Shown: positions 29,936 through 31,418 of the stretch, piece after piece
Layout: every line of letters starts with the position of its first letter
Numbering within the stretch: position 1 is the stretch's first letter
Source: Umboniibacter marinipuniceus
GTDB taxonomy: Bacteria; Pseudomonadota; Gammaproteobacteria; Pseudomonadales; DSM-25080
Length of the DNA: 64,000 nt
Direction: 5' to 3'
NCBI RefSeq assembly: GCF_003688415.1
Contig: NZ_REFJ01000003.1
Location: 186,001-250,000, forward strand
Program-made: the position numbers and the translations under genes
The notes under the pieces: model-generated
The model's input: only the letters and a program-made list of their open reading frames with translations
Told to the model about the DNA's origin: nothing
Databases searched by the model: none

Positions 29936-30139
29936 TGGTAGCGGGAGCTGGCTTATCACCATCGACCTTCAGCGGCTGCGCCGGTTGAAAGCTGAGCCCG
30001 ACCGGGCACTCTATCTAAACAACTACCATCTTAAAATTGGTAGCGGGAGCTGGTTTATCACCATCGACCTTCAGCGGCTGCGCCGGTTGAAAGCTGAGCC
30101 CGACCGGGCACTCTATCTAAAAAACTACCATCTTAAAAT
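29936..30139 (-). repeat. tRNA-fMet-derived repeat pair 1 (two 102-bp units)
   Basis: Two head-to-tail units begin at 29936 and 30038 and run up to the tRNA gene at 30140 with exact 102-base spacing. Read on the minus strand each unit has a 25-base spacer containing AAGATGGTAG, then GTCGGGCTCA (tRNA positions about 27-36), a 22-base segment in place of TAACCC, GAAGGTCG, a T-arm whose loop TTCGAAT has become TGATAAG, and the exact tRNA 3' end CCAGCTCCCGCTACCA. The T-loop change rules out a working tRNA. Confidence 0.85.
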
Positions 30140-30216
30140 TGGTAGCGGGAGCTGGATTCGAACCAACGACCTTCGGGTTATGAGCCCGACGAGCTACCAG
30201 ACTGCTCCATCCCGCA
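30140..30216 (-). tRNA. tRNA-fMet (CAT), copy A
   Basis: 77 bases with CCA encoded. The anticodon arm is TCGGG-CTCATAA-CCCGA: three consecutive G:C pairs, the mark of initiator tRNA. Positions 1 and 72 are T and T, unpaired, as an initiator needs (C and A in E. coli). Sequence is identical to the other three copies. It is the copy nearest to rimP, in the metY position, and has its own strong promoter at 30231-30258. Confidence 0.95.
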
Positions 30217-30405
30217 TCAAACTGGTGCAAATTATAAGCGATTAGCTCCACTAGTCAACCCAGAGGAACCCCTAACACACCTATAACGCTAATCAAAACG
30301 ACGTTTAGTCCCTACATTGACTCAAGCTCTAAGAAACATGCCAATGTATAACTAAGTGAGGCATCGACTCACATTCACTTCGTGAGCCGAGAAACGAACC
30401 ACCAA
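30217..30405. other. Spacer between tRNA-fMet copies A and B
   Basis: 189 bases without a gene. It holds the promoter of copy A (30231-30258) and a small hairpin (CTCAC / GTGAG) at about 30368-30386. I see nothing else in it. Confidence 0.6.
30231..30258 (-). promoter_or_regulatory. Sigma-70 promoter for tRNA-fMet copy A and rimP-nusA-infB
   Basis: On the minus strand TTGACT (30258-30253), a 16-base spacer and a perfect TATAAT (30236-30231). Initiation would fall about 8 bases before the tRNA 5' end. Confidence 0.8.
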
Positions 30406-30606
30406 TAGTAGCAGGAGCTGGCTTATCACCATCGACCTTCAGCGGCTGCGCCGGTTGAAAGCTGAGCCCGACCGGGCACTCTATCTAAAACCACCATCTT
30501 AAAATTGGTAGCAGGAGCTGGCTTATCACCATCGACCTTCAGCGGCTGCGCCGGTTGAAAGCTGAGCCCGACCAGGCACTCTATCTAAAAACTACCATCT
30601 TAAAAT
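30406..30606 (-). repeat. tRNA-fMet-derived repeat pair 2
   Basis: Units begin at 30406 and 30506 (100 and 101 bases) and end at tRNA copy B. Both have CCTGC in place of CCCGC near the tRNA-like 3' end, so these units carry small shared changes; the far unit also has CTA instead of CCA at its end. Confidence 0.85.
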
Positions 30607-30683
30607 TGGTAGCGGGAGCTGGATTCGAACCAACGACCTTCGGGTTATGAGCCCGACGAGCTACCAGACTGCTCCATCCCGCA
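30607..30683 (-). tRNA. tRNA-fMet (CAT), copy B
   Basis: Same 77-base sequence as copy A, including GGG/CCC in the anticodon stem, T1 opposite T72, TTCGAAT T-loop and CCA end. The 5' flank (about 25 bases) is shared with copy C, so the duplicated segment includes more than the gene. No convincing promoter of its own. Confidence 0.95.
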
Positions 30684-30746
30684 TCAAAAACATTAATCCT
30701 TTCGGACTTTCACAACGAACCTCAACCGAGGTTAAATTCTTCATTG

Positions 30747-30938
30747 ATAGCTGGCTTAACACCATCGACCTTCAGCGGCTGCGCCGATTGAAAGCTGAGC
30801 CCGACCGGGCACTCTATCTAAAACTACCATCTTAAAATTGGTAGCGGGAGCTGGCTTAACACCATCGACCTTCAGCGGCTGCGCCGATTGAAAGCTGAGC
30901 CCGACCGGGCACTCTATCTAAAACTACCATCTTAAAAT
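30747..30938 (-). repeat. tRNA-fMet-derived repeat pair 3 (outer unit truncated)
   Basis: The inner unit is 30839-30938, 100 bases. The outer unit lacks about ten bases of its tRNA-like 3' end and is recognisable from about 30749. Both have TGTTAAG in the dead T-loop where pairs 1 and 2 have TGATAAG or close variants, so units within a pair resemble each other more than units of other pairs. Confidence 0.8.
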
Positions 30939-31015
30939 TGGTAGCGGGAGCTGGATTCGAACCAACGACCTTCGGGTTATGAGCCCGACGAGCTACCAGA
31001 CTGCTCCATCCCGCA
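30939..31015 (-). tRNA. tRNA-fMet (CAT), copy C
   Basis: Identical 77-base initiator tRNA sequence with encoded CCA. The 5' flank matches copy B (AACATTAATCCTTTCGGA on the plus strand). Confidence 0.95.
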
Positions 31016-31153
31016 TCAAAAACATTAATCCTTTCGGATTTTAGAACCAACACCTTAAACTAAGGCAGGATCTTACTTCTTCTTCCGCACGCTCAAACCA
31101 AGCTACTAACACAGCCTTCAACAAGAAAGGAAGAGAGAAATTAACACTAAGAA

Positions 31154-31341
31154 CTGGCTTATCACCACCGACCTTCAGCGGCTGCGCCGGTTGAAAGCTG
31201 AGCCCGACCGGGCACTCTATCTAAAACTACCGTCTTAAAATTGGTAGCGGGAGCTGGATTATCACCATCGACCTTCAGCGGCTGCGCCGATTGAAAGCTG
31301 AGCCCGACCGGGCACTCTATCTAAAACTACCATCTTAAAAT
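31154..31341 (-). repeat. tRNA-fMet-derived repeat pair 4 (outer unit truncated)
   Basis: Inner unit 31242-31341, 100 bases; outer unit recognisable from about 31154. The inner unit has GGATTATCACC, a form between the repeat (GGCTTATCACC) and the true tRNA (GGATTCGAACC), as expected from recombination between the two. Confidence 0.8.
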
Positions 31342-31418
31342 TGGTAGCGGGAGCTGGATTCGAACCAACGACCTTCGGGTTATGAGCCCGACGAGCTACC
31401 AGACTGCTCCATCCCGCA
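31342..31418 (-). tRNA. tRNA-fMet (CAT), copy D
   Basis: Fourth identical initiator tRNA copy, 19 bases after the tRNA-Leu 3' end in the direction of transcription, so cotranscribed with it. Confidence 0.95.

Follow-up and report, generated by a model that had tools for sequence, protein, structure and literature searches.

Tandem repeats behind the initiator tRNA genes of Umboniibacter marinipuniceus apparently represent a conserved, so far unreported, rtT-like element of Gammaproteobacteria

What are the repeats that follow every initiator tRNA gene of Umboniibacter marinipuniceus, which carry parts of the tRNA but are not tRNAs? The locus lies within a stretch of 64,000 nucleotides (contig NZ_REFJ01000003.1, positions 186,001 to 250,000), which is referred to here as the window. 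On the minus strand of the window, secG, a tRNA-Leu(GAG) gene, four tRNA-fMet genes, rimP, nusA and infB follow one another, which is the usual metY neighbourhood of Gammaproteobacteria; the gene names were read from translations, and RimP, NusA, SecG and TIM were matched to relatives by tblastn. ARAGORN and Rfam both confirmed the four tRNA-fMet genes of the initial annotation, which are identical and all on the minus strand (Table 1). The whole array precedes the first strong terminator-like site, so that the tRNA-fMet genes and the repeats can share transcripts. Elsewhere in the window, the Rfam S15 leader was found before rpsO (23628–23750), as expected.

Table 1 Features of the tRNA-fMet array, in positions of the window.
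Feature	Position	Strand	Support or remark
tRNA-fMet copy 1, behind tRNA-Leu GAG	31342..31418	-	ARAGORN, Rfam tRNA
Unit 1a, complete: linker, HP1, HP2, T-arm, acceptor 3' strand, CCA	31242..31341	-	
Unit 1b, 3' end truncated after CCAG	31142..31241	-	
tRNA-fMet copy 2	30939..31015	-	ARAGORN, Rfam tRNA
Unit 2a, complete	30839..30938	-	
Unit 2b, 3' end truncated	30745..30838	-	
tRNA-fMet copy 3	30607..30683	-	ARAGORN, Rfam tRNA
Unit 3a, one acceptor-strand change, CCTGCTACCA	30506..30606	-	
Unit 3b, end = CCTGCTACTA	30406..30505	-	
Promoter-like site TTGACT-16-TATAAT before tRNA-fMet copy 4	30231..30258	-	11/12 consensus positions; consensus match only
tRNA-fMet copy 4	30140..30216	-	ARAGORN, Rfam tRNA
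Unit 4a, complete	30038..30139	-	
Unit 4b, complete	29936..30037	-	
Ninth unit start, linker only (ATTTTAAGATGGTAG...), after unit 4b	about 29917..29935	-	
First strong intrinsic-terminator-like site past the array, ahead of rimP	29734..29751	-	

Eight units, two after each tRNA-fMet gene, were observed in the assembled sequence, and the length of 100–102 nt from CCA to CCA that had first been reported holds for the complete ones. The units retain GTCGGGCTCA, GAAGGTCG and the 3' end of the tRNA, and between CTCA and GAAGG they carry, as described before, 22 bases versus the TAACCC of the tRNA. Truncation of two units was likewise confirmed (1b and 2b). The exact 16-base 3' end that had been ascribed to the units is present in four of the eight, whereas the two units of the third array carry one or two changes and the remaining two are the truncated ones. 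Matches between units reached E values down to 1e-54, and a genome search found the units confined to the tRNA-fMet locus within the 2.69-Mb genome; chance is thus excluded as an explanation of their likeness. A 114-aa open frame on the plus strand (window 29901–30245), antisense to two units and one tRNA, looks spurious and could receive a hypothetical-protein annotation.

Comparison of the units collected from all lineages gave a consensus that consists, after CCA, of a linker, a first hairpin (HP1), TCA or TCG, a second hairpin (HP2), the T-arm, the acceptor 3' strand and CCA, and that measures 99–111 nt in the common short-linker form, with neither the tRNA 5' half nor an anticodon. HP1 has the form GCCCGA-loop-TCGGGC, with a 3' strand that comes from the anticodon stem of the tRNA itself, and HP2 (probe sequence CAGCGGCTGCGCCG) is formed by a pyrimidine strand paired with GAAGGTC, a tRNA segment that supplies its 3' strand, and is capped by CGGC-NNN-GCCG. 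Since both hairpin 3' strands are pieces of the tRNA, retained tRNA segments have gained new pairing partners. In two remote variants, from the genomes G447 and G639, the anticodon arm is present as a longer inverted copy (e.g. ACCTTCGGCTTATGAGCCCGACGAG), a sequence pattern that may point to an inverted duplication as the origin of HP1. In remote variants at L110:1460–1730 and L099:1480–1600, the 5' arm behind tRNA-fMet repeats the tRNA-fMet anticodon arm almost perfectly in inverted orientation, which creates a long quasi-palindrome and suggests template switching. The units of genome G265, which are almost whole tRNAs with the change limited to the anticodon arm, are apparent intermediates between tRNA-fMet and the unit, and one G265 unit had a tRNA score of 24 against a cut-off of 29. 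In the unit of genome G338 (L047:1493–1607), the T-arm was observed to be split by a GC-rich insertion, CCGGAGCGCCGGCCGG. An acceptor-like stem, which would close the unit into a cloverleaf, is present in many minimum-energy folds, and pairing between the linker and the 3' end was slightly above that of shuffled linkers (combined p 0.013, among related loci); such a stem is not claimed here. Several native units folded no better than their dinucleotide shuffles.

Only the fMet and Leu genes reached the gathering score of the tRNA model RF00005 in the window, and no Rfam family matched the units. Elsewhere ARAGORN called units tRNAs, namely a tRNA-Ile(TAT) at L068:209–293 and a tRNA-Leu(CAA) at L048:1492–1582; the units can produce false tRNA annotations.

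To place the units in a wider context, we searched other genomes. A DNA search of 96 relatives located units in the sister species and, with less similarity, in other families of the order, always behind tRNA-fMet; one sister genome (G001) was uninformative, its own tRNA-fMet being also unmatched in this search. A pattern scan of genome_contigs, with one genome per species and 84,980 species, returned 26 stretches, 21 of which were counted as real units, and the other five were rejected as chance matches. The 21 loci all belong to Gammaproteobacteria by their titles; tRNA-fMet lies just upstream in 16, four start at a contig edge and one stands behind a degenerate tRNA. Named carriers are Kangiella aquimarina DSM 16071, Microbulbifer flavimaris, Pseudohongiella and Porticoccaceae. 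The covariance-model search of related genomes that the initial annotation had proposed found members clearly above the tRNA background in 13 of the 392 genomes searched in the order. A class sample added the family f110, in which 14 of 24 genomes then proved positive, and further covariance-model searches found members in the families f45 (12/99 genomes), f6 (4/22) and f43 (5/112). Units scored 41–103 bits versus 35–40 for tRNA-fMet, except for one unit and a few copies, degenerate or truncated, that fell below; model R1 gives every tRNA-fMet up to about 46 bits, and its tally of 379 of 392 genomes is not a unit count.

In total, about 45 loci with 87 distinct units were found, including at least 40 other gammaproteobacterial genomes, with 1–8 copies per genome and a terminal unit that is often degenerate. 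Occurrence of the units is therefore wide but patchy, and persistent inside families. Absence from close relatives, which would have pointed to a recent neutral duplication, was not what we found, as the units occur in the sister species and across the class, and their presence in independent genomes excludes an assembly artefact as the cause. At the public MAG contig CAJVYS010000022.1 (start of the L082 match), the sequence ends in an Illumina adapter fused to a unit, which is an assembly edge artefact at repeats.

To examine which parts of the unit have been kept, we compared 15 lineages. The HP1–HP2 core was 79% identical among them versus 51% when shuffled, whereas the linker was 52% identical versus 48% when shuffled, with a length of 27.2 ± 1.4 nt. 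Paired cells amounted to 94% in HP1, 90% in the base of HP2 and 94% in its tip, counts that rest on hand-picked cores in which one extra base was removed in ten sequences and HP1 was re-placed in three. Both sequence and length are variable in the HP1 loop and in the HP2 arm. In the HP2 tip, two double-sided changes were found versus 0.14 expected from shuffles (p 0.005), including a compensated tip in L097, with GUC-GCA-GAC replacing GGC-GCA-GCC. Double-sided changes in HP1 and the HP2 base were not above shuffles in the hand-picked core alignment, two-sided changes being few because one strand of the hairpin is tied to the tRNA. A separate alignment of 27 sequences, covering the whole structure with the T-arm, gave 14 double-sided cells versus 3.9 (0/500 shuffles), most of which are supplied by the T-arm, and related sequences can inflate such covariation numbers. 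The conserved hairpins with variable loops and the fixed linker length support, at the level of sequence, an RNA of its own, one of the possibilities raised by the initial annotation as a stable RNA.

The tRNA-derived part of the unit showed a different behaviour. In 29 of 30 loci, no tRNA of another host matched the T-arm and acceptor end of the unit better than the tRNA of the locus itself, and the 3' part of the unit matched the tRNA of its own host at a mean of 94.5% versus 83.9% otherwise (permutation, 0/2000). The 3' end of the unit and the host tRNA undergo concerted evolution. In most lineages other than that of the window, the T-arm of the unit is intact and equal or nearly equal to that of the host tRNA; the genus of the window is a partial exception, with drifted T-loops (TGATAA, TGTTAA) that also occur in the sister species. 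The altered T-loop first described is thus correct for the window units but peculiar to this genus. Gene conversion, which had been suggested as a purpose of the units, does happen, as the 3' ends track the host tRNA, but it is probably a side effect, since conservation is highest in the non-tRNA core.

Tracking of the host tRNA would also fit units that are neutral tandem repeats, that is, an old and functionless partial duplication of tRNA-fMet that was resized and homogenised by unequal crossing-over and gene conversion. Copy numbers of 1–4 or more per tRNA, the degenerate end copies and the patchy occurrence agree with this explanation as well. We nevertheless regard it as unlikely, given that a non-tRNA core has been kept across lineages whose linkers are near-random in sequence, yet held at 27 nt in length. 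Moreover, direct repeats of 35 bp with a spacing of about 100 bp are easily lost by deletion, and the tRNA gene left behind would be perfect. Useless repeats of this kind should vanish quickly, and their long persistence therefore suggests a benefit.

The closest known system, with a similar plan, is the RtT RNA (rttR; RF00391) of the E. coli tyrTV locus, elements of which type have been tied to BIMEs (PMC2965389). As with the fMet units, the RtT repeats stand in tandem directly behind a tRNA gene and end in the exact 3' end of the parental tRNA, here tRNA-Tyr, with CCA, and in the fMet arrays the terminal copy is often degenerate. The RtT repeats also carry an upstream inverted complement of the kept tRNA sequence (GGGGAAGGAT versus ATCCTTCCCC), which is the same plan as in the fMet units, and this E. 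coli duplex was better than shuffles (p 0.036). The two show no sequence match and differ in parent and length (tRNA-Tyr and 178 nt versus tRNA-fMet and about 100 nt), and an E. coli rttR copy is annotated as also carrying the tpr reading frame. The Rfam RtT model gave four matches in E. coli tyrTV, and no match in the window or in six unit loci, the latter up to E 1. As judged from sequence and model searches, the fMet units work on the RtT plan but are not RtT members, so the comparison drawn in the initial annotation stands for the plan and fails for membership. The likeness gives reason to expect, but does not prove, that the fMet units yield RNAs.

The 3'ETS of leuZ is an external transcribed spacer of a tRNA operon that acts as a small-RNA sponge. 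Like the RNA proposed here, it is cut from a tRNA precursor, downstream of the tRNA; unlike the fMet units, it is not known to be repeated or to be a remodelled tRNA 3' half. Tandem tRNA-fMet genes of the metZWV type are a likely source of the units, and plain tandem fMet genes occur in some relatives (L020); in contrast to such tandem tRNAs, the units have neither a 5' half nor an anticodon, and Rfam does not recognise them as tRNAs. A literature search, in which coverage of subscription journals was thin, found no tRNA-fMet repeat system, in agreement with the initial statement that none was known. The element is real, conserved and rtT-like, and apparently so far unreported.

The units probably represent a functional RNA of an uncatalogued kind, and not junk or an error of assembly. 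We lean towards the interpretation that they are an rtT-like structured RNA, which would be maintained by selection and is putatively released from the precursor of tRNA-fMet. The array would be transcribed together with tRNA-fMet, and the enzymes that mature tRNA ends would cut at each CCA, freeing modules of linker, HP1 and HP2. The units would then persist since the HP1–HP2 module is useful; persistence is read as usefulness because one recombination event between the 35-bp direct repeats would be enough to remove a unit, with no harm to the tRNA. A terminator precedes the units in the family f6 and in the genomes G066 and G007, where they could be transcribed only by read-through. The released module, which is kept in several copies and has a sequence-conserved hairpin tip that suggests recognition by a protein, might bind and titrate a protein involved in the handling of tRNA-fMet or of its precursor. 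Such titration is speculative, with low confidence as to the partner, but it is the mechanism to test first. The alternative that the units serve as a sponge for small RNAs, suggested earlier, is weakened in its simple base-pairing form, since a search of the 2.69-Mb genome that allowed up to two mismatches found no other site complementary to the conserved core, although shorter seeds might still pair.

The main mechanistic rival to a freed RNA is action in cis, in which the hairpins work inside the precursor, on 3' maturation of tRNA-fMet or on termination or antitermination before rimP-nusA-infB. HP1 lies at a fixed distance from CCA, the local folding energy of CCA plus linker was better than that of shuffles (combined p 3e-4), and hairpins predicted to sequester CTACCAAT were found in the window genus, the family f43, Kangiella and L074. 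However, CCA pairing was not general (combined p 0.055), and a CCA-sequestering hairpin as a general feature was rejected, being clear in some lineages only. The neighbourhood also speaks on both sides: rimP and/or nusA adjoin 32 of the 45 loci, and in E. coli an RNase III cut in the metY-nusA-infB transcript releases the tRNA (PMC6511841), but units are also found behind fMet genes away from rimP, and a cis-acting device would not need several tandem copies. We consider a cis-acting trailer rather unlikely.

Quite doubtful in our view, as an extension of the preferred rtT-like RNA, is that the units form a distinct class of regulatory RNA, in which the HP1–HP2 module would bind a protein of initiation or tRNA maturation, for example a tRNA nuclease, methionyl-tRNA formyltransferase or IF2, and so link initiator-tRNA supply with the initiation of translation, with rtT as a second, independent case.

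The flanks of the loci are mostly secG, tRNA-Leu, rimP and nusA. In the Roseobacter phage CRP-235 (MZ892989.1), an unannotated tRNA-fMet 3' block (L124:2501–2546) lies about 1.5 kb from the integrase gene and is probably the phage attachment site. That the units are relics of integration, with an element-borne left arm joined to a host tRNA 3' half displaced by a tRNA-fMet integrase, would account for the host's own 3' part and for the phage block starting at almost the same base (CTGAAGGTCG), but is very unlikely, as no unit was found in phage, plasmid or viral collections (including IMG/VR), a fixed DNA site would not show the variable lengths of the HP1 loop and HP2 arm, the short constant linkers leave no space for an element, and no integrase was seen in the sequence contexts that were read.

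tRNA operons are usually read as tRNAs and spacers. The recurrence of the units across the class, their fixed geometry and their reuse of the tRNA 3' end suggest that transcripts of initiator tRNA may carry a second, uncatalogued RNA product. Together with E. coli rtT, the units make a two-case pattern, in which the parental 3' end is combined with kept tRNA pieces that are locked by new complementary strands, and this pattern makes the old question of rtT function testable in new organisms.
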